Source: Asanoa ishikariensis (GTDB lineage Bacteria; Actinomycetota; Actinomycetes; Mycobacteriales; Micromonosporaceae). Taken from it: DNA of 64,000 nt. This document shows, in pieces, positions 582-40,244 of this stretch. The translations under genes and the position numbers were made by a program. Numbering within the stretch: the first letter of the stretch is position 1; each line of letters opens with the position of its first letter. The DNA is taken from positions 682,001-746,000 of the forward strand of contig NZ_FNQB01000002.1 in NCBI RefSeq assembly GCF_900107455.1, written 5' to 3'. A model generated the notes under the pieces. That model did not search any database. It was not told the DNA's origin and was given only the letters and a program-made list of their open reading frames with translations.

Positions 582-2076
582 GCTGGCGGCCGGTGAGCCG
601 GCCGACCATCACCGTGGCCCGGGCCAGCGAGCGCACGCCGCCGACCTCGAGGGTGGACGGCATGGGCCGCTTGCGGCGGCCTGACGCCTCTTCTCCGTTC
701 GCGGTGATGCCGACGGCGGCGGGCTCCTCCGCCCGGCTGCCGTGCACGGCGGTCACGGCGTCGCGCAAAGACTCGCCGGGCGCGCGCACCTGCTCCGCCC
801 GCCGGACCGCGGCGGTCCGCCACAGCAGCGCCTCGCCGGCCTGGACGAGGCCGACCTGATGGTGGTCGGCCAGCTCGACGAGGTGGCGCAGGGTGTCCGC
901 CGCGAGGAGGTGGGACGGCGGCAGTTCGAGCAGGTAGGGCGCCGGGAACGCGGCCACCGGCTCGGTGACCAGCCGGACCCGCGGCTCACCACGGTAGGTG
1001 GCGGCGATCAGCCGCAGGTCGAGGTGCGGGTCGGCGAGCGGCGCCACCCGGGCGTCGTCCACCTTGTCCCAGGAGCCGAGCAGGTTGACCCGCACGTCGA
1101 GGTCGGTGCCGTGGAGCACCGAGTCGGTCACCGCCCGGACCCGCTCCAACAGCTCGTCGCCGACCGGGATGACCACCTCGGCCAGGGGCACGGTCCACAT
1201 CGTGCCGCCGGCCCGCCGGGTGTGCCGGGGGTAGGGGATCCGGTCGGCGAAGAACGCCTGGTTGTAGCGGGCCACCTGCGCCCGGGCCTTCATCACCTGG
1301 GTCCGGCCGAGGTGCCACGCGCGGGCCGCCGGCTCGGGCACGAACACGGCGCCGGCCTGCGCGAGCCGGTAGCCGAACTCGGTGTCCTCGCCGAGCCGCA
1401 GGTCGGTGTCGAACCCGCCGGCCGCCTCGTAGAGCTCCCGGCGCAGCGCGGCGGTGGCGCCGACGTGGATCCGGAACGCCAGATGGTCGGCGGTGCGGAG
1501 CTGGTCGGTCTGCGTGATGTAGCGCTCGACGTAGCTGTGTGGCTCGCCGGCCGCGCCACCGAACAGGCCGTCCGGCGTGCCCCGGCGCCAGGCGTCGTCG
1601 ACGACGTCGGCGGCCGGCCACGGGCCGTGCGTCTCCGGGTCGACGAACCGCTTGTAGCCCAGCGTCACGGCGTACGGCAGGACGTGCTGCCAGCGGGCCT
1701 GCGCCGCGACGTGCTCCGGGTAGACCACCATGTCGGCGTCCAGCCAGTGCAGGATCTCGCCGGTGCTGTGCCGGACGCCCCACGCCAGCGCGTTGGCCCG
1801 GCCCCAGCCGCTCTCGACCCGCACCAGCGTGGTCCGCGCCGGCCGGATCGGCGGCAGCGTCAGCGCCGGCTCCGAACCGTCGTCGACGACGACCACCTCG
1901 AGCAGGTCCGCCGGGTAAGTCTGCCGGCTCAGGGAGGCCAGCGTGAGGTCGAGCGTCGCCTGGGCCCGGTAGGCCGGGATGATCACGCTGACCGACCGGG
2001 TCGGTTGCCAGCCGGCAAGCTCCGGCACCGCGACCGTCGACCAGTCGTTGCGGAGCACCCGCGGAATGGCGTCCAT
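553..2076 (-). CDS. GT2-family glycosyltransferase
   Basis: A 507-residue protein. It opens with a Rossmann-like GT-A fold: VSVIIPAYRA near residue 28, VVVVDDGSE, and the metal-binding LDADMV (DXD-type) motif near residue 110. RLGEDTEFGYRLA matches the ED acid-base region. The C-terminal 200 residues are a less conserved accessory part. I chose the ATG at 2076 because GGAAGGG lies 7-8 bases upstream and the fold begins shortly after. The frame stays open further upstream, but that part is low-complexity and runs antisense to another gene. It lies next to another glycosyltransferase, which suggests a cell-envelope or exopolysaccharide locus extending to the left of the window. Confidence 0.85.
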   Translation of the reverse strand: MDAIPRVLRNDWSTVAVPELAGWQPTRSVSVIIPAYRAQATLDLTLASLSRQTYPADLLEVVVVDDGSEPALTLPPIRPARTTLVRVESGWGRANALAWGVRHSTGEILHWLDADMVVYPEHVAAQARWQHVLPYAVTLGYKRFVDPETHGPWPAADVVDDAWRRGTPDGLFGGAAGEPHSYVERYITQTDQLRTADHLAFRIHVGATAALRRELYEAAGGFDTDLRLGEDTEFGYRLAQAGAVFVPEPAARAWHLGRTQVMKARAQVARYNQAFFADRIPYPRHTRRAGGTMWTVPLAEVVIPVGDELLERVRAVTDSVLHGTDLDVRVNLLGSWDKVDDARVAPLADPHLDLRLIAATYRGEPRVRLVTEPVAAFPAPYLLELPPSHLLAADTLRHLVELADHHQVGLVQAGEALLWRTAAVRRAEQVRAPGESLRDAVTAVHGSRAEEPAAVGITANGEEASGRRKRPMPSTLEVGGVRSLARATVMVGRLTGRQLRARLIRRG

Positions 2077-2236
2077 GACCAACCCTTCCGCGCCGCGAAC
2101 ATCTGGCCGGGAGGATAGTCCGCCCGCGTTACGCCCTGGTGGACGCGAGGTGGACCGTTTGGGCTCGGCCGCATCGGGTAGGCGCCAACGTGGGTCCCCC
2201 CTGTCCGTGTTCTGTCCGCGAACAAGGAGGAGTCGC

Positions 2237-2677
2237 GTGTTGTTGCTGCGAGATCTCGCCCACCAGGCGCCGCTGAGGTTGGCCACGGGTGCCTTCGTGC
2301 TCAACTCCGGTCTGTCCAAACGGGGTGCCGACTCGGACGCGGCGGCCGGCATGCACGGCTTCGCCACGACGGCGTACCCGTTCCTGGGCCGGATGGAGCC
2401 CCGCAAGTTCGCCAAGCTCCTGTCGACGGCGGAGATCACGGTGGGCGCGGTGCTGCTGTTCCCACTGGTGCCGGAGGGGCTGGCGGGCCTCACGTTGACC
2501 GGGTTCGCGGCCGGGCTGTTGGGTCTGTACCTCAAGACGCCCGGCATGCGCCTCGACGGCAGCCTGCGGCCCACCGAGGCGGGCACGGTGCTGGCCAAGG
2601 ACACCTGGCTGCTCGGCATCGGCCTGTCCCTGCTGACCGACGACCTCGTCCGGACGTTCTACCGGGTGCGTGGCTGA
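2237..2677 (+). CDS. Small membrane protein, DoxX-like
   Basis: A 146-residue protein starting at GTG 2237, six bases after a strong AAGGAGG. It has about three hydrophobic segments: around residues 10-20, an AEITVGAVLLFPLVPEGL segment followed by FAAGLLGLYL, and a C-terminal LLGIGLSLL. The arrangement resembles small DoxX-like actinobacterial membrane proteins, but no catalytic motif is visible. The FUSC gene starts inside its last codons (8-base overlap), so the two are translationally coupled and probably act together at the membrane. Function is not known. Confidence 0.7.
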   Translation: MLLLRDLAHQAPLRLATGAFVLNSGLSKRGADSDAAAGMHGFATTAYPFLGRMEPRKFAKLLSTAEITVGAVLLFPLVPEGLAGLTLTGFAAGLLGLYLKTPGMRLDGSLRPTEAGTVLAKDTWLLGIGLSLLTDDLVRTFYRVRG

Positions 2678-3680
2678 CGGCAGGCTGCGGGCTCGCCTGC
2701 GGGCCACCTGGATCGACCGCTGGGTGGTTCTGGAACTCGGTGTGGCCGCCGGGCTGGCCTGGTTCATCGCCGGGATGGTCCTGGGGCAGACCAACGCCTT
2801 TTTCGCGCCGGCGGCCGCCGTGCTGGTGGTCGGCGGCTCGATCGGCCGGCAGTTGCGGCAGACCGTCGAGCTGATCGCCGGCGTGACGGTCGGGCTCATC
2901 CTCGCCGACGGGCTGGTGCACCTGATCGGCCGCGGCCCGATCCAGCTCGCGGTGGTGGTGGTCCTGGCCGCCGGCCTGGCGCTGCTCGTCAGCGGCGGAA
3001 AGATGCTCCTGAACCAGGCGACGACGACCGCGGTTCTGATCGTCGCGCTGTATCCCTCGGCCAACGCCGGGATCTTCTACGAACGCTGGCTGGACGCCCT
3101 GATCGGCGCCGGGGTGGCGCTCGGGGTCCGGGCGGTGGTCGTGCCGTTCCTGCCGCTCGCGCTCCGCCGGGCGACCGGCGTCCTGCGCGCTTCGTTGGCC
3201 GATGCGTTCGACGGCGCGAACGCCGGGCTGCGTGCCGCCGACCAGCCGGTCACGCGGGACGCCGCGGCCCGCCTCGAGTCGGCCCAGACGGTGCTGCGGG
3301 ACCTGGCCGAAGAGACCGGGCGGCTCGCGAAGGTGGTCTCGATAGCGGTCGCGCGGCACCGGACCAGGCAGATCCTGGCCGGGGTCGAGGCCAAGCTGCC
3401 ACACCTCGGATCCGCGCTCACCCATGCCCATCTCGCCCTGCGGGCCGAAGCGGACGAGTTGCCGGCGAAGGTGCCGGACGACCTGGTCGACGCGGTCTCG
3501 GCCCTGGCCCACGCCAGCGACGAACTGGTGGAGTCGCTGTTGCGCCCGGCCGGGTCCGCGAAAGAGAGCCCCGGCCCGCCGCCCGAGCACCGTCTGGCGG
3601 GCGTGTCGCCACCGGTCGCCGAGCACGTCCGCTCCGCGGCCGGCGAGCTTGCCCGCGCCGCCGCCCCGTCCGGTGTTTGA
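2670..3680 (+). CDS. FUSC / aromatic acid exporter family membrane protein
   Basis: A 336-residue protein. The first 170 residues form a block of membrane helices (around residues 20-45, 48-60, 70-85, 90-110, 115-130 and 140-165), ending in the VPFLPLALRR turn typical of FUSC/ArAE half-channels. The remaining 160 residues are soluble, helical and rich in Ala, Leu and acidic residues, as in family members with a cytoplasmic domain. The GTG start overlaps the upstream gene. Related proteins export aromatic or weak acids; the substrate here is unknown. No regulator lies next to it. Confidence 0.8.
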   Translation: MADGRLRARLRATWIDRWVVLELGVAAGLAWFIAGMVLGQTNAFFAPAAAVLVVGGSIGRQLRQTVELIAGVTVGLILADGLVHLIGRGPIQLAVVVVLAAGLALLVSGGKMLLNQATTTAVLIVALYPSANAGIFYERWLDALIGAGVALGVRAVVVPFLPLALRRATGVLRASLADAFDGANAGLRAADQPVTRDAAARLESAQTVLRDLAEETGRLAKVVSIAVARHRTRQILAGVEAKLPHLGSALTHAHLALRAEADELPAKVPDDLVDAVSALAHASDELVESLLRPAGSAKESPGPPPEHRLAGVSPPVAEHVRSAAGELARAAAPSGV

Positions 3681-3767
3681 GGAAACCGACCCGACCGGGT
3701 TCGGGGCTGGCTGTAATGGCTGTAGATGCGGACCCGGGTCCGTGTGCCTGCTGCGGTGAGGTGGTTG

Positions 3768-4754
3768 ATGCGGGTTTCGGCAGTGGCCAGTGGGAGCCGA
3801 GTGGTCAGCGTCGGCGCCTACCGGCCCGCGCGGGTGGTGACCAACGCCGAGATCTGCGAACGGATCGACTCGACCGACGAGTGGATCCGGCGACGGTCCG
3901 GCATCGTCAGCCGCCGGTTCAGCGCCGAGACCGAGACCGTGACCAGCATGGCGGCGGCCGCCGGGCGCCAGGCGGTGCAGCGCGCGGGCCTCGAACCGGC
4001 CGACATCGACATGGTCCTGCTGGCCACCATGTCGCGGGTCCAGCAGACGCCGCCGGCCGCTCCGCAGGTGGCGCACGAGATCGGTGCGACCACCGCCGCG
4101 GCGCTCGACCTGGGCGTGGCCTGCGCCGGTTTCTGCCACGGCATCGCGATCGCCGACGGGCTGATCTGGGCCGGCAGTGCCCGCCACGTGCTGGTGATCG
4201 GCTCGGAGAAGATGACCGACATCATCGACCCCACCGACCGATCGCTGGCGTTCCTGTTCGCCGACGGCGCCGGCGCGGTGGTCGTCGGCCCGGCGTCCGA
4301 GCCCGGCGTCGGCCCGGTGGTCTGGGGCTCCGACGGCGCCCGGGCCGGCCTGATCGGGCACCCGGAGCCGTACACCAGCATGCTCGAGAAGCCCGACTTC
4401 TGGCCGACAATGGCGATGGCCGGGCCGGAGGTCTTCCGCTGGGCGGTGCAGGAGGTCACCGCGACCGCCCGCGCGGCGGTGTCCATGGCCGGGCTGGTGA
4501 CGGCGGAGGTGGCCGCGTTCGTGCCGCACCAGGCCAACGCCCGGATCACCGACCGGATGGTCGCCGGGCTGGACCTGACGGAGTCGTGTGTGGTCGCCCG
4601 TGACATCGAGACGGCCGGCAACACCTCGGCCGCCTCGATCCCGTTGGCGCTGGACGCGTTGCTCGCCTCCGCCGACGCCCCGCGCGGCCCGGCCCTGTTG
4701 GTGGGCTTCGGCGCGGGGCTGTCCTACTCGGCCTTGGTGGTGGATCTGCCTTAG
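3768..4754 (+). CDS. Beta-ketoacyl-ACP synthase III family protein (FabH-like)
   Basis: A 328-residue thiolase-fold ketosynthase. The catalytic triad is visible as Cys-119 in VACAGFCHG, His-254 in VPHQANARI and Asn-285 in ETAGNTSA, matching FabH, which condenses acyl-CoA with malonyl-ACP. The start at ATG 3768 is preferred because GGTGAGGTGG lies directly upstream; an in-frame ATG at 3726 has no ribosome site. No acyl carrier protein or other fatty acid gene is adjacent, so this may be a stand-alone or accessory KAS III that primes a specialised acyl chain rather than the housekeeping FabH. The gene ends against glyA, and the two stop codons overlap by two bases. Confidence 0.9.
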
Positions 4755-27956: not shown

Positions 27957-28817
27957 ATGGGTGTGGTGCCGCTCAAGGAGATCGTCGACCGGGCGATGCG
28001 CGACCGCTACGGCGTTGCCGCGATCAACATCGTCAACGACCTGACGCTGGAAAGCGTACTCGCGGCCGCGGTGGAGCGGCGTTCACCGATCATCGTCCAG
28101 ACCTCGGTGAAGACGGTGAAGTCCATCGGATCCGATGTGCTGATGGCGATGTGGCGCGCGATGACGGCCGGCATCGAGGTGCCGTGCTGCCTCCACCTAG
28201 ACCATTGCCCCGAGCGGGCAGTGATCACCGAGTGCCTCGACAAGGGCTGGAACTCGGTGCTGTTCGACGCCTCGACCATGCCGGTCGAGGAGAACCTGCG
28301 CCAGACGATCGAGGTGGTCGCCGAGGCCCGGGCGCACGGCGCCCACGTCGAGGGCGAGATCGAGGCGATCAAAGGCGTCGAGGACGACGTCGGCAGCGAC
28401 GAGGTCTCCAAGCGGCAGTCGTTGGAGGTCTCGGTGCACTTCGTCGAGACGTCCGGTGTCGACGTGTTCGCGCCGTCGATCGGCAACGCACACGGCGTCT
28501 ACTCGGCCACGCCGCACCTTGACGACCAGCGCGTCACCGACCTCGTCGCGGCGACCGGCGTGCCGATCGCGCTGCACGGCGGCACCGGCCTGAGCGACGA
28601 GCAGTTCACCGACCTGATCGCCCGTGGCTGCGCGAAGGTCAACGTGTCCACCGCGCTGAAGGTGACCTACATGCAGTCGAACCTGGCGTTCCTGCGCGAG
28701 ACCGAAGAGCGCGGGAAGTGGGACCCGCCGTCGCTGTTCCGCCACGTCGGTGCGGACGTCACCGCGATGGCCGCCGGTTACGTCGACCGCTTCGGGAGCG
28801 CGGGGATGGCATGGTGA
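27957..28817 (+). CDS. Class II fructose-bisphosphate aldolase-family protein
   Basis: A 286-residue zinc aldolase. LDHC near residues 81-84 carries the catalytic Asp-82 and metal-binding His-83. EGEIEAIKGVEDD, SIGNAHGVY and ALHGGTGLSD supply the remaining zinc and phosphate sites. It would cleave or form a ketose phosphate using DHAP or a related ketone. It heads an operon with a HAD phosphatase and both dihydroxyacetone kinase subunits, so its substrate is probably not fructose-1,6-bisphosphate but a ketose made or used with the Dak kinase. No ribosome site is visible before ATG 27957. The next gene overlaps its stop. Confidence 0.9.
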   Translation: MGVVPLKEIVDRAMRDRYGVAAINIVNDLTLESVLAAAVERRSPIIVQTSVKTVKSIGSDVLMAMWRAMTAGIEVPCCLHLDHCPERAVITECLDKGWNSVLFDASTMPVEENLRQTIEVVAEARAHGAHVEGEIEAIKGVEDDVGSDEVSKRQSLEVSVHFVETSGVDVFAPSIGNAHGVYSATPHLDDQRVTDLVAATGVPIALHGGTGLSDEQFTDLIARGCAKVNVSTALKVTYMQSNLAFLRETEERGKWDPPSLFRHVGADVTAMAAGYVDRFGSAGMAW

Positions 28818-29596
28818 CCGCGCTGGTCTTCGACTGCGACGGCGTCCTGGCCGACACCGAACGGTTCGGGCACCTGCCCGCGTTCAACCAGGCGTTCGCC
28901 GAGTTCGGCCTGCCCGTGCGGTGGGACGAGGAGGAGTACGGCCGCAGGCTCGCGATCGGTGGCGGCAAGGAGCGCATGAAGAGCCTGCTGACGCCGGAGT
29001 TCGTCGCCGAGGCCGGCCTGCCCACCGACGCGGCCGGGCAGGCCGAAGCGGTCGCCGCCTGGCACCGCCGCAAGACCGAGCTCTACACCGCCATGGTCGA
29101 GGCGGGGAAACTGCCGGCCCGCCCCGGGATCGCCCGGATCGTCGAGGAGGCGTACGCCGCGGGCTGGCCGCTCGCCGTGGCGTCCACATCGGCCGAACCG
29201 TCCGTGCGTGCCGTGCTGGAGCACGCCGTCGGACCGGACCGGGCGCGCGACTTCACGGTGCTGGCCGGTGATGTGGTGCCGCACAAGAAGCCGGCACCCG
29301 ATATCTACCTGCTCACCCTCGAACGGCTCGGGTTGGCGCCGCACGAGGCCGTCGTCGTGGAGGACTCACACAACGGGCTGGAAGCCGCGAAGGCGGCCGG
29401 GATCGCCTGCGTGGTCACGGTCAACGGCTACACCGCCGACGAGGACTTCACCGGTGCCGCGTTCGTGGTCGACTCGCTGGGTGAGCCGGGCGCCGAACCG
29501 GTCACGGTGCTGGCCAACCACAGCCCGGCGCGGCCGGGCGCGTACGTCACGCTGGCCGACCTCGCGGCCGTCTTCGGCGAAAGGGACGCTCGATGA
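28811..29596 (+). CDS. HAD-superfamily phosphatase (CbbY-like)
   Basis: A 261-residue HAD-IA hydrolase. Motif I is FDCDGVLADTE (nucleophile Asp-8, acid Asp-10), motif II is VASTSAEPS, motif III is HKKPAPDIY, and motif IV is VVVEDSHNGLEAA. A helical cap lies between residues 15 and 90, as in beta-phosphoglucomutase and sugar phosphate phosphatases. The C-terminal extension after residue 220 is unusual for the family (ANHSPARPGAYVTLADL). It overlaps both neighbours (7 and 4 bases), so it is translated as part of the aldolase-Dak operon and probably dephosphorylates an intermediate of that pathway. Confidence 0.9.
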   Translation: MVTALVFDCDGVLADTERFGHLPAFNQAFAEFGLPVRWDEEEYGRRLAIGGGKERMKSLLTPEFVAEAGLPTDAAGQAEAVAAWHRRKTELYTAMVEAGKLPARPGIARIVEEAYAAGWPLAVASTSAEPSVRAVLEHAVGPDRARDFTVLAGDVVPHKKPAPDIYLLTLERLGLAPHEAVVVEDSHNGLEAAKAAGIACVVTVNGYTADEDFTGAAFVVDSLGEPGAEPVTVLANHSPARPGAYVTLADLAAVFGERDAR

Positions 29597-30228
29597 CCGA
29601 CTACCCGCTCGGCCAGGTGGAGTTCGTGGTGCGGACGATCGCGGATACCGCCGTCGCGAACGAGAAGTACTTCGGCGAGCTCGACGCGGTCGTCGGTGAC
29701 GGTGATTTCGGCTATTCGCTGGCCCGCGGCTTCGAGCTCGTCATCCGCGACTGGGACAGCTTCGACCGCACCGACGTCGCCACCTTCCTGCGTAAGGTCG
29801 CACTCGTCATCACCAGCCGGATCGGCGGCACCTCGGGACCGTTGTGGGGCACCGCCTTCCTGCGCGCGGCCACCGCCGTGCCGGGAAAGTCCGCAGTGGA
29901 TGGTCCCACCGCGGTCCTGATGCTCCGCGCGGCGAGCGAGGGCATCGCGACCCGCGGCAACGCCAGCCTCGGCGACAAGACCCTGCTCGACTCGCTCGTG
30001 CCGGCCACCGACGAGATCGAGCGCCAGATCGGCCTCGGCAGTGATGGACCGACCACGGTGCGGGCCGCCGCGACCGTCGCCCGGGCGACCGCGGAGGAGA
30101 CCGCGAAGCTACAGGCCCGGCGCGGCCGGCAGAGCTACACGGGCGAGCGCAGCATCGGCAGCGTCGACCCCGGAGCGGTCGCCGTCGCCGTCATCTTCGA
30201 AGCCCTTGCCGACGCCTGGGCCGTTTGA
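29593..30228 (+). CDS. dhaL: Dihydroxyacetone kinase subunit DhaL
   Basis: A 211-residue all-helical nucleotide-binding subunit. AVVGDGDFGYSLARG carries the three Mg-ADP aspartates (Asp-31, 36 and 38), followed by GGTSGPLWGTAF, LGDKTLLDSLVPA and the ARRGRQSYTGERSIGSVDPGA C-terminal signature. It supplies phosphate to the substrate bound covalently on DhaK. No DhaM phosphotransferase subunit is present in the operon, so the ADP would be recharged elsewhere or the kinase uses ATP. The start overlaps the HAD gene by four bases. Confidence 0.93.
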   Translation: MTDYPLGQVEFVVRTIADTAVANEKYFGELDAVVGDGDFGYSLARGFELVIRDWDSFDRTDVATFLRKVALVITSRIGGTSGPLWGTAFLRAATAVPGKSAVDGPTAVLMLRAASEGIATRGNASLGDKTLLDSLVPATDEIERQIGLGSDGPTTVRAAATVARATAEETAKLQARRGRQSYTGERSIGSVDPGAVAVAVIFEALADAWAV

Positions 30229-30245
30229 TCTAAGGGGGAGCCGCC

Positions 30246-31241
30246 ATGAAGAAGTTCGTCAACGATCCCAACCAGTTCGTGCCCGAGATGCTCAAGGGTG
30301 TCGCCCTGGCGAACCCGGACACGCTGCGCTACGTGCCCGAATACAACCTGATCATGCGGGTCGACGCCCCGAACGACGACCGCGTCTCCCTCGTCCAGGG
30401 CTCCGGCTCCGGCCACGAACCCGCCCACGCGATGATCGTCGGCAAGGGCATGCTCGACGCCGCCTGCCCCGGTGACGTGTTCTCCGCGCCGCCGATGGAC
30501 TACGTGCTGGAGACCAGCAAGATGCTGGCCTCGCCGAAGGGCGTGCTGCACATCATCAACAACTACACCGGCGACCGGATGGCCTTCGACATGGGCAAGG
30601 AGCTGGCCGAGGCGGAGGGCGTCCAGATCAAGACGCTGCTGGTCGACGACGACGTCGCCGTGGCGGACTCCACGTACACGATCGGTCGGCGTGGTGTCGC
30701 CGGCAACTTCTTCGTCATCAAGGTCGTCGGCGCGGCCGCCGAGCAGGGCGCCGACATCGACGAGCTGGTGCGGCTCGGGGAGAAGGTCAACTCGGTCACC
30801 CGGACCATGGGCATGGCGCTCACGTCGTGCACCCCGCCGGCCAAGGGCTCGCCGCTGTTCGACCTGGGCGACGACGAGATGGAGATGGGCGTCGGGATCC
30901 ACGGGGAGCCGGGCCGCCGCCGCGAGAAGCTCGCCGACGCCAACACCATCGTCGACGAGCTGTTGGAGGCCGTGGTCACCGACCTGCCGTACAAGAAGGG
31001 TGACGACGTCGCTTTGATGATCAACGGCCTTGGCGGTACGCCCATCGGTGAGCTCTACATCCTGTACGGCCGTGCCTTCGAGCAGCTCGAGGCCCGTGGC
31101 ATCCATGTCCGCCGCAACTACGTCGGCGAGTACTGCACCTCGCTCGACATGGCCGGCGCGTCGCTGACCCTCGTCAAGCTCGACGACGAGATCGTCAACG
31201 GGCTGTCCGCGCCGGCCGACATCGCGATCCGCACGTTCTAG
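30246..31241 (+). CDS. dhaK: Dihydroxyacetone kinase subunit DhaK
   Basis: A 331-residue substrate-binding subunit. The conserved opening MKKFVNDPNQFVPEMLKG is followed by QGSGSGHEPAHA, HIINNYTGDRMAF and His-219 in MGVGIHGEPG, which binds the ketone as a hemiaminal. It closes with RNYVGEYCTSLDMAGASLTL. Together with DhaL it would phosphorylate dihydroxyacetone or another short ketose such as erythrulose. AAGGGGGAGCC precedes the ATG. The order aldolase, HAD, DhaL, DhaK suggests a dedicated ketose catabolic route rather than glycerol use, since no glycerol dehydrogenase is present. Confidence 0.94.
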   Translation: MKKFVNDPNQFVPEMLKGVALANPDTLRYVPEYNLIMRVDAPNDDRVSLVQGSGSGHEPAHAMIVGKGMLDAACPGDVFSAPPMDYVLETSKMLASPKGVLHIINNYTGDRMAFDMGKELAEAEGVQIKTLLVDDDVAVADSTYTIGRRGVAGNFFVIKVVGAAAEQGADIDELVRLGEKVNSVTRTMGMALTSCTPPAKGSPLFDLGDDEMEMGVGIHGEPGRRREKLADANTIVDELLEAVVTDLPYKKGDDVALMINGLGGTPIGELYILYGRAFEQLEARGIHVRRNYVGEYCTSLDMAGASLTLVKLDDEIVNGLSAPADIAIRTF

Positions 31242-32025: not shown

Positions 32026-35000
32026 ATGGTGAAGAAGTCGGTGGCGGGGGTCGTCGTCCTGCTGGCGGCGCTGGGCTTGGTGTCGCCGCCGGTGTTGGCG
32101 GCACAGAACGACCCCGCCCACCCGAGATATCTGGGGAAGACGTTCTACACCGGTGAGTTCCACGCGCACACGTCGGTCAGCGACGGCGTCGAACTGCCGC
32201 AGGACGCGTTCGACTACGTGCGCGGCCAGACCGACGCGGACTTCGTCACCCTGTCCGAGCACGACGTGATGTGGGACCTGCGCACCGGCGAGGACTTCCT
32301 CGACGACTGGCGTGACGCCGACTCGACCGAATGGCGCAAGGTGCACGAGCAGGCCTACGCCTTCAACAAGAGCCAGCAGGACCTGGTGGCCGTCCCGGCG
32401 ATCGAGAACACCTGGTACGACGGCACCGGGCACATCAACGTCTTCAACACGGACTGGCATGCCACCGCCCGGGCGACGGAGAAGGGCAGCGTCGACGGCT
32501 TCGCCAACTCCTTCGGCACCGGCGACCTGAAGTACGACATGCCGACCTTCTTCGCCCGGCTGAAGCTCGACCCGGACGCGATCGCGCAGTTCAACCACCC
32601 GAGCACCACCTCGAAGGGCAACTTCTTCGGTTTCCAGGGCCTCGACCCGCAGGTGGACGACCGGATCGACCTCATCGAGGTGAAGACGGCCGCCCAGTTC
32701 GCCCAGTTCCAGCAGGCGCTGGACGTCGGTTGGCACCTCGGCCCGGTCTGGAACGGCGACGAGCACACCGCCAACTGGGTCAAGAGCAACGCCGCGATCA
32801 CCGGTGTCTGGGCGAAGAACCACTCCCTGGACGGCCTCTACGCCGCGATGCGCGACCGCAGCGTCTTCAGCACGCTGGACGTCAACTCGATCCTCGGCTT
32901 CAGCGCGGACGACCACCTGATGGGCTCGATCCTGCCCGCCGGCAAGAAGTCGACCGACTTCGACGTCTGGCTGACCGACCCGGACGCGAGCGACTCGTTC
33001 ACGTCGGTGAAGCTCTACACGAACCACGGCCAGGTGGCACACACCTTCCCGGGCGTCAGCGGCAACAACGTGCACCTGACCCTGGACCGGCCGGTGGCCG
33101 ACGGCGACTACTACTACGTCCGCGCCGACCAGGCCGACGGTGACTTCGTCGTCTCGGCCCCGATCTGGTTCGGCAAGAAGACGCGCGACGCGAACTACGC
33201 ACCGGTCATCACCGTCAAGGACCGGGTTCCGGACCACGCGGCGTACGGCCAGACGATCAAGCTGCCCGCGGTGAGCGCGACCGACGACTCCGGCGCGACC
33301 CCGACGGTCTCCTACGAGGTGTACGACAGCGCCGGCCTGGTCCCCGTGACGAACGGCGCCTTCCGCGTCCGCAGCTACCAGGACCACTTCGTGGTGGTCA
33401 AGGCGACCGACGCGACCGGCAGCACCAACGCGGAACTGCTGCGCATCACGGTCGACCAGGACAAGCTCGACCCCGCCGGGGTGTTCGCCTACTTCGGCAG
33501 CACGGCGACCGTGTCCGAGCGCCCCGGCGGCGCCGGCATCGCGGTGACCACCGACCGGACCATCAAGAAGGTGTACGCGCAGGTGCTGCCCGCGGGATCG
33601 CGGGACTGGTCGAAGGCGCAGGTGCGCACCTCGACGAACGACCGGCCGTACGAGGTCAACACGATCGGCAACGCCGAGCCGGAGTACCAGCACTCGATCA
33701 CCGGGCAGGCGTTGCGCAGCCACGAGTTCGACGTCAAGGACCTGCGCGGCGGCTCGCGCTACCAGTACCGCTTCGGCGTCGCGGTCCGCGGCCGCGCGCC
33801 CAACCCCTCGGACGCCTCGGCCTGGACCGCCGTCGAGGGCGAGTTCGTGGCCGGCGGGGCGGGAAACGAGCCCGTGTACGTCGTGGGTGACCTTCAGGCG
33901 ACGACGCACGACGCGGCCGACCTCGGGCTGCTGCGCAACGTGGTCGACCGGTTGAAGACGGAGAAGCCCGGTGGTGGCACCGTTCTCCAGCTCGGTGACC
34001 TGGTCGACAACGGCGGTCGCGGCCAGTACTGGGACGAGGTCGCGGACCACGTCTTCGACGGGCTGGACCTGCAGTACGCGCCGGTCGCGGGCAACCACGA
34101 GACCTACGGCGACCTGGACTACAACGCGTACTCCGAAGAGCGCACCGCGATCTTCTCCAACATGTTCGACACCCCGAAGAACGGCGTCATCGGCGAGAGC
34201 AACTACTCGTTCGACCGGGGCGACATCCATTTCTCGGTGCTGAACTCCAACGTCGACATGGACAAGCAGCTCGCGTGGCTGCGGGACGACGTCCGGGCGT
34301 CCGCCAGGAAGTGGAACGTCGTCACGGGCCACTTCTCGTACTACGGCGGTGAGCACGGCAACGACGCTCCGTTGGCGGCCGACCGTCCAAAGGTGACGAA
34401 GGCGCTCCACGACCTCGGAGTCGACCTGTACATCGGCGCGCACGACCACGTCTACAAGCGATCGACCATCTTCGAGGGTCGGCTGGCGCAGAACCCGGAC
34501 GAGGAGGCGCGCGGCACCACGTTCGTCACGATGGGCTCGGCCGGTCCGAAGTTCTACGACAACACCGCGCACTGGTGGGACGACGTCGTCTTCGACGAGA
34601 ACACCCAGGTCGGCGGCGTCCTGCGGGCCGACGGCGACGGGCTCACCATGAGCACCTACACGATCGACGGCCGGGTGGTCGACTCGTACACGGTGCGTAA
34701 GCCGACCGGCGACTTCGAGCTCGCCACCAACGACATCGAGAACCGCGAGCTGCGCGGCGTCGGGTTCCGCAGCTACGCGGGCAGTCGGGACACGCTGACG
34801 GTGGCCGCGGCGACGTACGACAACAGCCAGCAGCGGATGATCGAGCTGCGCACCGCCGACGTGCAGCTCGACCACCGGGGCACCGAGCAGTTCGTCACCT
34901 TCGACCGCCCGCTCCCGGTGGGGCCGGGCGACACGGTCAAGGTGTTCGTCTGGGACAGCCTGGCCGGCGGCAGGTCGCTGATCCCGGCGGTCACGGTGCG

Positions 35001-38000
35001 CGAGGGCATCGCCGGCAACGGCACCGCCGCGGACCCTTACCTGATCAAAACGGCGGCCGACCTGCCGAAGATCGCCAACGATCCGGCGGGCGTCTACCAA
35101 CTCACCGCGGACCTCGACCTGACCGGCACCGCCATGTCGCAGATCGGTCGGCTGGTGAGCTTCACCGGCGTCTTCGACGGCGCGGGTCACACCATCCGCG
35201 GCTACACCGCGCCCGCCGACGAGGGCGTCGGCCTGTTCGCCGACAACCACGGGACGATCCGCGACCTCGCGGTCGACGCCGCCATCAACGCCGCGAAGAT
35301 CACGGCGGGCATCGTGGCCGACGTCAACCACGGCACGATCGAGCGGGTACGCACGTCCGGCTCGATCACCGCGACCGAGCGGGTCGGCGGCATCGTCGGC
35401 GACCATTACGGCACGGTGCGCGACAGCTACTCGACCGCCGCGGTCCGCGCGACCAACGTCTACTCGGGTGGCCTGGTCGGCATCGCCTTCGGTGGTTCCA
35501 CCACGGAGAACGCGTACGCCGGCGGCGCCGTCATCGCCGACGGTCGCAACGCCGGCGGTGTGGTGAGCTACGGCTACGACGAGACCGTCGTGCAGCACGT
35601 CGTGGCGATCAACGCGGCCGTCACCGCATCGAGCTTCGCCCACGGCATCGTCGGCCGAGTGCTGGACGGGAACGTCGCCACCCTCGCCGACAACTACACC
35701 AGCGCGGTCGTCCCGGTGAGCGTCCAGTCGCTGTCGGCGCCGCCGGCAGCCGACAACTGGAAGGGCGCGCTCGTTCCGGCCGCCGAGGTCCGCACGAAGG
35801 CCTTCTACGAGAAGCGCGGCTGGGACTTCGGCGCCGTCTGGGACTGGAGTGAGACCGGACTGCGTCCGGTGCTGCGCGCGGTGTTGGAGGACGTCGCACC
35901 GATCGCGACGCCGTCGCTGCCGCGTGACTCGGCTGGCTCTTACATTGTGGACAGTGCTGCCGATCTGGCCCAGGTGGGCGAGTTCCCGGAGTACGACTAC
36001 GTGCTGGCCGCCGACCTGGACCTGAAGGGGACTTCGTTCAGCTCTCTGGGCGGCCTTCGGGCCTTCACGGGTGCGTTTGACGGTGCGGGTCACACCATCA
36101 GCGGCCTCACGTCGACCACGGGCGGTCTCTTCAACAACCTGAGCGGCTCGGTGCACGATCTCGGCATCGTCGGCGCGACGGTCACGAAGTCCACCGCGAA
36201 CAACGGAATCGTCGCCAACACCAACTCCGGGACGATCGAGCGGGTGTACGTGACGGGCACGATCAGCGGTGCCGGGTACGTCGGCGGCATCGCCGGCACT
36301 TCGGCGGGCACGATCCGGGACAGCTACTCGCGCGCCGACGTGACCGTTACGAGCGGGCGTTACTCCGGCGGCATCGTCGGCGTGCCGGCCGCGGGTAGCG
36401 TCACCGAACGCACCTATGCCACCGGCACGATCGCGACCAACGCCAACGAGAGCTCCGGCGGCATCACCGGGTACTCGTACACGGGCACCGTGATCCGGAA
36501 CAACTTCGCACTCAACCCGTCGGTCACCGCGAGCAACTTCGGGCAGCGGGTCGTGGCGCGGACCTACGCGGGGCACTCGCCCACGTTGGAGAACAACTAC
36601 GCGGTGGAGACGCTGACGGCCGGGAAGCAGAACGACACGACGGTCGGTGCCGCGACGCTCAACGGTTCGACCGTCACTGTGGCCGACGCGCGTTCGCAGT
36701 CGACCTGGGAGACCGGGCTCGGCTGGGACTTCACGGCTGTGTGGCAGTGGGACGGGACCCGGCCTCTGCTGCGGTCGGTGCCCGAGAAGACCGTGACTCC
36801 GCCGACCGCGCCGGCACTGGACCGGGACACCGACGGTCACTATTTGGTTCGTACGTCCGCCGACCTGGCGGAGGTCGCTTCCTGGCCGGCCTCGACGTTC
36901 CGGCTCGCCGGGGACATCTCGCTGACCGGTTTTGCCGGCGCCGGGATCGGTGGCGCAACGGGGTTCACCGGTGAGCTCGACGGCGCCGGCCATGTGCTGA
37001 CGGGCTTCACGTCGACGACCGGTGGCCTCTTCGCCACGATCGCTGCCACCGGAAGCGTCCACGACCTCGGCCTGGTCGACGCCGCGGTGACCAAGTCGAC
37101 CAACATCGCGGGCATCCTGGTGGACACCCACCGGGGCACGATCGAGCGGGTCTTCACCTCCGGTGCGGTCACCAGCCCGTCGTACGCCGGTGGCATCGCG
37201 GGCACGTCGTTCGGGACGATCCGGGACGCGTACTCGACGGCGACGGCGACGACCACGACCAGCAACTACGCCGGCGGCATCATCGGCGTGGCGGACAGCC
37301 CGAGCCGCACGGAGCGGGTCTATGCCACGGGTGCCGTCAAGGCGGGCGGCACCACCGCCGGTGGCCTCACCGGCTACGCCCGGGACAGCGGGACCGTGGT
37401 GAAGGACAGCTTCGCCCTCAACCCGACGGTGACCGCGGGGTCACTCTCACAGCGGGTCGTCGCCCGGTTCGCCAATGGACAGACGGCTGCGCTGGCGAAC
37501 AACTTCGCGGTCGAGACTCTCGTGGCCGGAGTGCAGAGCAACACAGCCACCGGACCGACGACGCTCAACGGTGAGACGCGGACGGTGGCCGAGGCGCAGA
37601 CGCAGTCGACCTGGGAGAGCGGGCTGGGCTGGGACTTCGGCACGGTCTGGAAGTGGGACGAGGCCGCCGCGCGCCCGGTGCTGCGGGGTGTGTCATCGCC
37701 GGTGGTCGCGCCGGCTGGTCTGGTTGTGCCGGCTGGCCTCGTTTTCGAAGCCAGGCCCGATATGGGGATCACGTCGGTCGGTCACGAGGCGGTACTCGGG
37801 GCGGACGGCGTGGCGACGGTGACCGCGCACCTGGGTGCGGCCGCGGCGGGGGCGCGGCTCAGCGTGCTGCTGCTCGACGGCAAGCGGATCGCCTACCTCA
37901 ACGAGGCGAAGCTTGACTCCGCCGGCGACGCCACGTTGCACATCGCGGTGCCGACGTTGGACAAGTTCACGATCGCGCTCGGCACGTCCGCGGGAACTCC

Positions 38001-38250
38001 GCGGTACGTGGCACCGCTCGATCCTTCCGGTGGTCCGACGAAAATCAAGATCACGGTGGACGGACGCGGTGTCGCGTTCGCCGACAAGCACCAGACCGCG
38101 GGCAGCATCCTGCGTGCGGCCGGGGTCGACCCGGCAAAGTACGATCTTGCCGAAGCACGGGGTCGCGGGAAGCAGCACGTCTTCCCCGACAACCACCCCA
38201 TCACCGTTAAGGAAGGCGACGCGTACGCGACGGTGCGAACCTCGCGTTAG
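32026..38250 (+). CDS. Giant secreted PHP/metallophosphatase/GLUG protein, ubiquitin-like tail
   Basis: A 2074-residue exported protein with a signal peptide (residues 1-25, ending PVLAAQ). Domain order: a PHP/CehA-like metallohydrolase (about 38-390, GEFHAHTS with His-46 and His-48, TLSEHD, FNHPS); a beta domain (395-480); a purple-acid-phosphatase-like Fn3 domain (490-605); and a calcineurin-type phosphoesterase (615-890; Asp-622, Asp-658, GNHE with Asn-690 and His-691, GAHDHVY). Three GLUG-repeat blocks follow (about 995-1290, 1300-1590 and 1598-1890), each with DGAGHTI-type and GTIERV-type motifs, then an Ig-like domain (1895-2000). Residues 2003-2074 resemble the beta-grasp of bacterial multi-ubiquitin proteins. 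The N-terminal domains should be extracellular phosphoesterases. GGGGGACCTG precedes the ATG. Confidence 0.85.
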   Translation: MVKKSVAGVVVLLAALGLVSPPVLAAQNDPAHPRYLGKTFYTGEFHAHTSVSDGVELPQDAFDYVRGQTDADFVTLSEHDVMWDLRTGEDFLDDWRDADSTEWRKVHEQAYAFNKSQQDLVAVPAIENTWYDGTGHINVFNTDWHATARATEKGSVDGFANSFGTGDLKYDMPTFFARLKLDPDAIAQFNHPSTTSKGNFFGFQGLDPQVDDRIDLIEVKTAAQFAQFQQALDVGWHLGPVWNGDEHTANWVKSNAAITGVWAKNHSLDGLYAAMRDRSVFSTLDVNSILGFSADDHLMGSILPAGKKSTDFDVWLTDPDASDSFTSVKLYTNHGQVAHTFPGVSGNNVHLTLDRPVADGDYYYVRADQADGDFVVSAPIWFGKKTRDANYAPVITVKDRVPDHAAYGQTIKLPAVSATDDSGATPTVSYEVYDSAGLVPVTNGAFRVRSYQDHFVVVKATDATGSTNAELLRITVDQDKLDPAGVFAYFGSTATVSERPGGAGIAVTTDRTIKKVYAQVLPAGSRDWSKAQVRTSTNDRPYEVNTIGNAEPEYQHSITGQALRSHEFDVKDLRGGSRYQYRFGVAVRGRAPNPSDASAWTAVEGEFVAGGAGNEPVYVVGDLQATTHDAADLGLLRNVVDRLKTEKPGGGTVLQLGDLVDNGGRGQYWDEVADHVFDGLDLQYAPVAGNHETYGDLDYNAYSEERTAIFSNMFDTPKNGVIGESNYSFDRGDIHFSVLNSNVDMDKQLAWLRDDVRASARKWNVVTGHFSYYGGEHGNDAPLAADRPKVTKALHDLGVDLYIGAHDHVYKRSTIFEGRLAQNPDEEARGTTFVTMGSAGPKFYDNTAHWWDDVVFDENTQVGGVLRADGDGLTMSTYTIDGRVVDSYTVRKPTGDFELATNDIENRELRGVGFRSYAGSRDTLTVAAATYDNSQQRMIELRTADVQLDHRGTEQFVTFDRPLPVGPGDTVKVFVWDSLAGGRSLIPAVTVREGIAGNGTAADPYLIKTAADLPKIANDPAGVYQLTADLDLTGTAMSQIGRLVSFTGVFDGAGHTIRGYTAPADEGVGLFADNHGTIRDLAVDAAINAAKITAGIVADVNHGTIERVRTSGSITATERVGGIVGDHYGTVRDSYSTAAVRATNVYSGGLVGIAFGGSTTENAYAGGAVIADGRNAGGVVSYGYDETVVQHVVAINAAVTASSFAHGIVGRVLDGNVATLADNYTSAVVPVSVQSLSAPPAADNWKGALVPAAEVRTKAFYEKRGWDFGAVWDWSETGLRPVLRAVLEDVAPIATPSLPRDSAGSYIVDSAADLAQVGEFPEYDYVLAADLDLKGTSFSSLGGLRAFTGAFDGAGHTISGLTSTTGGLFNNLSGSVHDLGIVGATVTKSTANNGIVANTNSGTIERVYVTGTISGAGYVGGIAGTSAGTIRDSYSRADVTVTSGRYSGGIVGVPAAGSVTERTYATGTIATNANESSGGITGYSYTGTVIRNNFALNPSVTASNFGQRVVARTYAGHSPTLENNYAVETLTAGKQNDTTVGAATLNGSTVTVADARSQSTWETGLGWDFTAVWQWDGTRPLLRSVPEKTVTPPTAPALDRDTDGHYLVRTSADLAEVASWPASTFRLAGDISLTGFAGAGIGGATGFTGELDGAGHVLTGFTSTTGGLFATIAATGSVHDLGLVDAAVTKSTNIAGILVDTHRGTIERVFTSGAVTSPSYAGGIAGTSFGTIRDAYSTATATTTTSNYAGGIIGVADSPSRTERVYATGAVKAGGTTAGGLTGYARDSGTVVKDSFALNPTVTAGSLSQRVVARFANGQTAALANNFAVETLVAGVQSNTATGPTTLNGETRTVAEAQTQSTWESGLGWDFGTVWKWDEAAARPVLRGVSSPVVAPAGLVVPAGLVFEARPDMGITSVGHEAVLGADGVATVTAHLGAAAAGARLSVLLLDGKRIAYLNEAKLDSAGDATLHIAVPTLDKFTIALGTSAGTPRYVAPLDPSGGPTKIKITVDGRGVAFADKHQTAGSILRAAGVDPAKYDLAEARGRGKQHVFPDNHPITVKEGDAYATVRTSR

Positions 38251-39167: not shown

Positions 39168-39278
39168 GCGGCAGGGTCGTCGGCCGGATGAGGCCATTGG
39201 CCGCAGTAGGCCACGGTCTGGAGCGGCGCGTCACCTCGGGACTCACCTACCGTGGGCCTGTCGCGCCAAGGAGGCCAG

Positions 39279-40244
39279 ATGATCATCGATTGGAACGGGT
39301 CGCGCTCATCCGGCCGCCTGGCCGCGTTGCTGGTGGCGTTCGTGCTGGCCCTGGCCGGCGCCGCCGCCGTGACCTCGCCCGCGAGGGCCGCCGGCTGCGT
39401 GGACGCTACGCGGGTCTTCGCCGTCGACGGCGGCACCGGACGCCTCGTGGAGCTCAACTCGTGCCGCAGCACGCCCGCGCTCGGGCCGGGTGTCGAGGTC
39501 GACTCCGCTGACTGGCGGGCGTACCGGCTGGTGACCGGAGTCTTCGACGGCAACGCGGCGGTGCTGTACGCGGTGACCGCGGACGGCCGGCTGCAGTGGC
39601 GCCGCCAACCGTCGCCCGGCGCTGCGTTCGGTGCTCCGACATCGGTCGGGTCGTCGATCGACTGGTCCCAGTTCAGCTCGGTGTTCGCGCCCGCCGTCGG
39701 TTATCTGCACACCGTGGGCCCGTACGGTCCGGTTAGGACGTTCCGCCACGACGGCTGGGCCACCGGCGCCGGCCCGGTGAGCGAGATCGACCCCCTGTTG
39801 GGCAACTTCGCCGGCCCCTCGATGTCCGCGGCGGCGTGGGGCGCGTACGCGGAAGGCAACGAGAGCGGCCATCACTTCCGGATCTGGCGGGTCCCGGGCT
39901 ATCCCAACTCCAAGGAGTACGCCGACGCGTGGTACGTGAGCGGGCGGCTGCCGTCGGGGGTCACCAGTGTCGCCGGTGCGGAGCCGGAACTGTACGCGGT
40001 GGATGGCGCCGGCCGCGTCGTGCGGCTCAAGCAGCCGCCGCCGTGGTCGCCGGGACCCAAGCGCAACTGGGACTGCGCACGGCAGAACAAACAGACGTGG
40101 TCTGTCGTCACGACCTCACCGAATGCCGGGTACGCCTCGGTTGTCGTGCCGCTGAGCCACTCGTTCACGCCGCCGGCCGGTCTGAACACACCGCACTTCG
40201 GCGAGGACTGTGACCCGATCGACGACCCATGGGAGTGGCAATGA
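39279..40244 (+). CDS. Secreted propeller-like protein
   Basis: A 321-residue exported protein. ATG 39279 follows AAGGAGG, and residues 1-37 form a signal peptide ending PARAAG. The mature part contains repeated beta blades of about 45 residues with aromatic endings (RVFAVDGGTGRLVELN, VLYAVTADGRLQWRR, ELYAVDGAGRVVRLK), like tachylectin-type beta-propellers that bind sugars. Four cysteines may form disulphides. No enzyme motif is visible. A lectin-like role is inferred. Confidence 0.75.
   Translation: MIIDWNGSRSSGRLAALLVAFVLALAGAAAVTSPARAAGCVDATRVFAVDGGTGRLVELNSCRSTPALGPGVEVDSADWRAYRLVTGVFDGNAAVLYAVTADGRLQWRRQPSPGAAFGAPTSVGSSIDWSQFSSVFAPAVGYLHTVGPYGPVRTFRHDGWATGAGPVSEIDPLLGNFAGPSMSAAAWGAYAEGNESGHHFRIWRVPGYPNSKEYADAWYVSGRLPSGVTSVAGAEPELYAVDGAGRVVRLKQPPPWSPGPKRNWDCARQNKQTWSVVTTSPNAGYASVVVPLSHSFTPPAGLNTPHFGEDCDPIDDPWEWQ

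Follow-up and report, generated by a model that had tools for sequence, protein, structure and literature searches.

The 64,000-nucleotide stretch of the Asanoa ishikariensis genome analyzed here (contig NZ_FNQB01000002.1, positions 682,001 to 746,000; hereafter the window) encodes at 32026-38250, on the + strand, a giant protein of 2074 residues whose tail reads as a ubiquitin-like (Ubl) domain. We interpret this giant as an exported metallo-phosphoesterase with a C-terminal slot that has been filled, in one genus, by a Ubl of the polyUbl/Bub family, kept there for a non-covalent role in binding, assembly or capping, and we place the probability of this reading at about 0.6. An earlier note on the same DNA had described such an open reading frame (ORF) with PHP, calcineurin-type and GLUG parts and characteristic tail motifs; all of these were present, and the start, stop and length of the ORF were confirmed.

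On sequence grounds, the tail is a domain of the polyUbl/Multi_ubiq beta-grasp type, with a predicted fold. Multi_ubiq (PF14452) was its top Pfam match, covering residues 2008-2062 with 17.9 bits in a scan of the whole protein and 19.5 bits in a scan of the tail alone, against a curated cut-off of 24.5 bits. Plasmid-encoded single-Ubl proteins from two loci, L053 and L054, were also under the cut-off (17.2 and 17.9 bits), and the two-repeat relatives L055 and L005 exceeded it (43.9 and 24.9 bits). Because the operon-borne L053 and L054 proteins score equally low, the cut-off does not tell members from non-members when a protein has a single Ubl. Multi_ubiq was the top Pfam match in all four of the relatives scanned (L005 and L053 to L055). 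At the level of pairwise identity, the tail matched 10 plasmid records at 32-52%, five of them annotated as "multiubiquitin domain-containing protein." It was 51% identical over 67 aligned columns to a Ubl of Nocardioides plasmid pCHL that is annotated as hypothetical, and a two-Ubl protein of Mycobacterium sp. AT1 was 41% identical to it. A profile of 12 related Ubls scored 79.8 bits on the tail and 62.4 bits on the orthologous protein of a congener (G101), compared with 5.9 bits for the best of 2000 tail shuffles (1851 reported), so that the match is not a chance one. The earlier assignment of the tail to the multi-ubiquitin-type beta-grasps was supported. The tree of Ubl domains gave little resolution; the two giants paired (96/85) and were nested in a weak six-row fork (75/83) with the Nocardioides plasmid Ubl. 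No PADLOC or NCBIfam model matched the tail.

The predicted fold may point the same way. An AlphaFold model of the tail, for which the alignment had three rows, the tail itself plus both AT1 repeats, had a predicted local distance difference test score (pLDDT) of 55.7, with the element order E-E-H-E-E-E. With this low-confidence model as the query, the top eight PDB chains in Foldseek, from five entries, were all multi-ubiquitin or BubA proteins, each at a probability of 1.00, with TMq of 0.57-0.62 and E values of 3e-3 to 5e-2. A 14-row profile that included the giants found only 8u38 and 9d5b among PDB sequences at E values up to 1, and both matches were weak (E 0.36 and 0.49).

The tail closes a protein with the following parts:

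32026..32103, + strand: signal peptide, residues 1-26, ending at 32103; cleavage site placed by eye, with a KK n-region, a hydrophobic core and an A-A-Q site
32143..33171, + strand: CehA/McbA-type PHP metallohydrolase, residues 40-382; NCBIfam NF038032, 76.7 bits, E 2e-21, cut-off 80
33871..34455, + strand: calcineurin-like/purple-acid-phosphatase-like phosphoesterase, residues 616-810; PF00149 (Metallophos), E 1e-14
35041..37665, + strand: three GLUG-repeat blocks, about residues 1006-1880; PF07581 in four stretches, 33.7 bits, limits by eye
37666..38031, + strand: post-GLUG beta-rich domain, about residues 1881-2002; aligned to the C terminus of an outside homologue (G165) up to YVAPLDP / YVASLLP
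38041..38247, + strand: C-terminal Ubl domain (polyUbl/Multi_ubiq), residues 2006-2074, 69 amino acids; PF14452 below cut-off, lineage profile, Nocardioides identity and fold search

The giant is probably exported. This claim is based on a signal peptide read by eye, and the most hydrophobic 19-mer of the protein begins at residue 6; the top eight such segments have their first residue at 1-9 or 1889, and none is C-terminal. The protein contains no cysteine. Since NF038032 covers the full domain with a score barely under its cut-off, we term the first enzymatic domain CehA/McbA-like; its PHP domain carries an HAH motif at residue 46. The second passed the PF00149 gathering score (55.8 versus 21.5 bits), carries the metal-site motifs GDLVD, GNHE, GHFS and GAHDH, and was matched by the PDB purple acid phosphatases 6git/6gja at E 2e-5. 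The division of the GLUG region into three blocks was read by eye from recurring WDF-VW-W ends. When the post-GLUG domain and the tail were modelled together without an alignment, the model was poor (pLDDT 47.3) and its matches were mainly scattered beta-sandwich proteins; no multi-ubiquitin protein was among the 50 rows listed, and one title named a diubiquitin-derived binder. An SD-like (Shine-Dalgarno-like) GAGGGGG precedes the ATG of the gene, which lies in a genome of 9.1 Mb (G000) and has coding-type GC content at third codon positions (GC3) in all of its parts (0.79-0.98). A search upstream of the gene for PHO-box-like sites found none in tandem.

The body of the giant, queried as residues 39-1001 (963 residues), was detected in 2 of the 354 family genomes and 2 of the 6 genus genomes searched; a class-wide sample of 296 genomes added 10 more, from two other families. 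Its scarcity in its own family beside its presence in the two others suggests that it arrived horizontally. In G101 the protein is an orthologue whose frame and tail are intact; it is 91% identical over the whole protein, 66-68% in the tail and 69-95% in the other parts. Synteny between the two species extends across the giant, with the HAD/dihydroxyacetone-kinase genes at one end and a PspC gene at the other, and the aligned DNA is 89-93% identical. Homologues outside the genus (G165, and genera g88 and g110 of family f22) share the PHP, Metallophos and GLUG body at 50-66% identity over the query. The closest of them, G165, at 66%, has the post-GLUG domain in common with the window protein up to the YVAPLDP/YVASLLP motif, and in the place of the Ubl its frame (open at 795-6398 of L043) ends in a domain of some 100 residues that looks unrelated and has no Pfam match. 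Among the nine f22 homologues, eight terminate directly past their final GLUG block; L052, one of these eight, is broken in its N-terminal part, and the frame of the ninth (L050) is broken. A six-frame profile search of the ten outside-genus loci found no Ubl (best 4.8 bits, against 62.4 for the G101 control). The tail is kept by the one congener that has the protein and was found in none of these ten homologues, and the C terminus of the giant is, on this comparison, a replaceable domain slot.

The distribution of the Ubl itself agrees with a lineage-specific fusion. Ubls were detected at E 1e-4 or better in 7 of the 354 family genomes; two of these are the giants, and the other five encode free Ubls in frames of 116-303 amino acids. 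In samples of 394 class and 396 phylum genomes, every hit over 29 bits, apart from the one in the window, lay in a frame of at most 180 amino acids; because scoring in these searches was limited to roughly the top 15-17 first-look candidates of each genome, weak relatives may have been missed. Among the genomes searched, the Ubl fusion was found only in this genus, and the earlier remark that a single Ubl on an exported hydrolase is unusual was well placed. In viral contigs, neither the giant nor any of three Ubl queries had a relative, and the tail had none in phages. The whole giant matched 53 plasmid records, none over more than 80% of its length, the best being GLUG regions of other proteins. 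Several candidates were set aside. Two sub-threshold matches in the host genome (13.2 and 12.7 bits), considered as further Ubl copies, lie in unrelated frames and are apparent chance. Thirteen low matches (at most 24 bits, in open frames of up to 2413 amino acids) were read individually and none looks like a Ubl fusion; they are penicillin-binding-protein-, thiolase- and polyketide-synthase-like proteins, other proteins and antisense frames, and include an exported surface protein (L030) with a partial match of 18 bits. A match in G124 (35%, E 0.005) overlaps another ORF antisense.

Several observations weigh against our reading. PF14452 stays below its cut-off in both giants, and in the G101 tail its match, at 15.8 bits, is confined to the first half of the domain, with DUF348 (PF03990) near at 13.9. 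As a control, 14 well-known genomes were scanned with the Multi_ubiq model, and 5 of them gave sub-cut-off matches (E up to 10); the E value of the window tail is 0.023. The 79.8 bits are partly circular, since the profile rows were gathered by similarity to the tail, a circularity that affects neither the PF14452 scores nor the operon context. The tail model is of low confidence, its alignment included two known relatives, and no Foldseek match reached E 0.001. Binding and export are both putative. The G101 tail has lost two of 18 hydrophobic columns (Y to S and A to P). Finally, the tail has the highest ratio of nonsynonymous to synonymous change (dN/dS) between the giants of any part of the protein (0.66, against 0.11-0.36 elsewhere), its nonsynonymous change is not significantly rarer than its synonymous change (Fisher p 0.17), and its GC3 of 0.79 is the lowest of the protein, as expected of a young, weakly used appendage.

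The last three of these points, together with the presence of the giant in only 2 of the 354 family genomes, favor the alternative that the tail was gained recently in a harmless fusion accident and is carried along as a nearly neutral passenger without a function of its own. We regard this as possible but rather unlikely. Positions that differ between the two tails are those where the canonical family is also variable: across 12 canonical rows, the 21 changed columns had a mean entropy of 2.10 bits, compared with 1.35 bits in the 44 unchanged columns (Mann-Whitney p 3e-4). Both giants keep a hydrophobic residue at 16 of the 18 hydrophobic columns, and we read these findings together as a fold retained while the surface diverges. 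The frame is also intact in both species, whose locus DNA, where aligned, is 89% identical.

The operon context of the free relatives bears both on the family of the tail and on a second alternative. In all nine loci examined downstream of the Ubl gene (L005, L053, L054, L055, L070, L072, L073, L074 and L075, including three of the 10 plasmid matches), that gene is followed by a short ORF and, after it, a ThiF-type gene, in keeping with the earlier statement that such Ubls normally sit beside E1/E2-like genes. The order was taken from annotation in three loci, from Pfam in two and by eye in five. An HSHP/HTHP...D pattern at the N terminus of the ThiF-type protein, seen in L005 and the five by-eye loci, was read as JAB-like; on the proteins of L005 and L053, Pfam called ThiF and did not call JAB. 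The short ORF, for which no Pfam match was found in the two scanned, is labelled "E2-like" from its position only. Iyer et al. 2006 (PMC1779556) describe the order Ubl, short ORF, JAB/ThiF as operon type 6e. HigA- or ImmA-type genes lie upstream of the Ubl in L053 to L055 (annotated) and L005 (by eye), and a survey places 70% of Multi_ubiq proteins beside toxin-antitoxin loci with a COG2856/DUF955 component (PMC4963859).

Three further observations were made in these loci. A YADD-motif ORF at 12320-13885 of L005, reverse-transcriptase-like by eye, lies about 1.2 kb past the AT1 Ubl-ThiF operon, possibly in a defence island. In L054, at 1721-4224, genes annotated as a DarT-type ADP-ribosyltransferase and an ADP-ribosylglycohydrolase occur near the Rhodococcus plasmid Ubl operon. 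The free Ubl gene at 1501-1695 of L075 has an in-frame TAG stop and stands ahead of an open ThiF-type frame.

With its domain family resident in Ubl/ThiF operons and its position at the extreme C terminus, the tail could be taken for a ligation handle, as the earlier note had suggested, whose C terminus would be joined to a protein or to the wall by an E1-like enzyme before export or by a sortase-like enzyme outside. This is improbable. A Nocardioides E1-JAB query against six congeneric genomes, G000 included, returned ThiF-domain-only matches of 20.9-24.2 bits and no full-length cognate E1-JAB. Thirteen of 20 free Ubl proteins read end in -VA, 10 of 15 in one set from which two chance matches were dropped and 3 of 5 in another, whereas the giants end in TVRTSR (window) and TVRTAR (G101), and the window tail stops three residues before the end of its Nocardioides relative. 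A Pfam scan of the ten neighbours of the giant found no conjugation or sortase gene (E2 and sortase were not searched elsewhere in the genome), and the giant has no LPxTG. Conjugation by the tail is unlikely because both the E1-JAB and the usual C-terminal end are missing.

The tail could also be a DUF348 domain (a G5-linked Ubl), a type of Ubl already known from secreted actinobacterial proteins. In RpfB, the DUF348 Ubl domains are N-terminal and occur with G5. The cellular location would fit, and PF03990 matches the tails weakly (12.7 bits in the window and 13.9 in the congener). We consider this identity very improbable. Multi_ubiq scores higher in the window tail (19.5 bits) and covers the domain, with the two closer in the congener (15.8 versus 13.9); it is also the best Pfam match in the four relatives scanned, and half of the 10 plasmid rows carry the multiubiquitin annotation. 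The PF03990 cut-off of 24 bits was not reached, the Pfam scan of the giant matched no G5 domain, and RpfB (5e27) came only at rank 25 of the tail fold search, with a probability of 0.47. The surface-anchor role first proposed for the tail, and with it a sortase reading, was rejected as unsupported, given no LPxTG, no strongly hydrophobic C-terminal segment and no sortase among the ten neighbours.

Those ten neighbours encode a GAF/ATPase/LuxR regulator, an aldolase, a HAD hydrolase, DhaL, DhaK, HxlR, PadR and PspC proteins, a tachylectin-like protein and a LuxR regulator, and none of them is the E1-like, JAB or sortase gene that had been looked for near the giant. The class II aldolase, HAD hydrolase, DhaL and DhaK genes stand in a row upstream of the giant (27957-31241), are syntenic in G101 from 28608, and form a probable sugar or dihydroxyacetone catabolic operon. 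Just downstream, the tachylectin-like protein (39252-40244), which is below the Pfam cut-off, has a signal-like N terminus and was unmatched at E 1e-10 in five congeneric genomes.

Returning to our preferred reading, a Ubl of the polyUbl/Bub family, whose usual place is within the cell beside E2-like and JAB-ThiF (E1) enzymes, would have been captured into the C-terminal slot of the giant, presumably from a mobile Ubl operon. The giant itself, as its motifs suggest, probably hydrolyses phosphate esters outside the cell, with the GLUG blocks as a spacer or binding region and the tail as a small, cysteine-free, charged beta-grasp module that would cap the protein. There, the tail would probably bind a partner or a second copy of the enzyme non-covalently; of the roles first offered for it, pure binding is the one that survives, and it is one that we infer. 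Since PDB titles (9d5b and 9d59) record filaments of multi-ubiquitin proteins, self-association is a candidate role. A more specific version, in which a conjugation tag was domesticated outside the cell into an assembly or docking, polymerisation or adhesion domain, perhaps through self-association surfaces like those of multi-ubiquitin filaments, is tentative and, in our judgment, doubtful.

Both the domain family and the enzyme domains were already known, and it is their exported, partnerless combination that we did not meet in the literature searched. Among the matches listed in that literature, mostly outside subscription journals, no exported polyUbl/Bub-type fusion was described. Beta-grasp families do occur in secreted proteins, among them superantigens, streptokinase/staphylokinase and SLBB (PMC1949818), and the surprise of an extracellular Ubl is tempered by such domains, DUF348 of RpfB included. 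RpfB (PDB 5e27) resembles the giant as a secreted actinobacterial enzyme with a Ubl domain, but its Ubl belongs to a different family with a weaker sequence and fold match to the tail. The secreted CehA/McbA-metallophosphoesterase-GLUG proteins of G165 and f22 (g88, g110) have the same enzyme body as the giant, and differ in that G165 carries another C-terminal domain, eight of nine f22 proteins end after GLUG, and a Ubl was found in none of the ten loci.

For the tail, the nearest known systems are those in which polyUbl/Bub/Bil-type Ubls are described, in the literature consulted, with E1/E2/JAB partners. BubA of the Bub (bacterial ubiquitination-like) pathway (PMC13373217; PDB 9ea8 and related entries) provides the top structural matches of the low-confidence tail model. 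Unlike BubA, the giant is not a free protein, is presumably extracellular, and has no E1-JAB-like partner that we found, other Bub components being outside that search. The type 6e polyUbl of Iyer et al. 2006 (PMC1779556; PF14452) is homologous, and actinobacterial relatives of the tail keep its gene order; in contrast, the single Ubl of the giant is the C-terminal domain of an exported hydrolase, with no cognate E1-JAB found and without the usual end. If our reading is true, the giant is a small test case for the surface function of a Ubl once conjugation is excluded, and its exported, partnerless copy shows that the polyUbl/Bub family can leave its pathway by domain capture.

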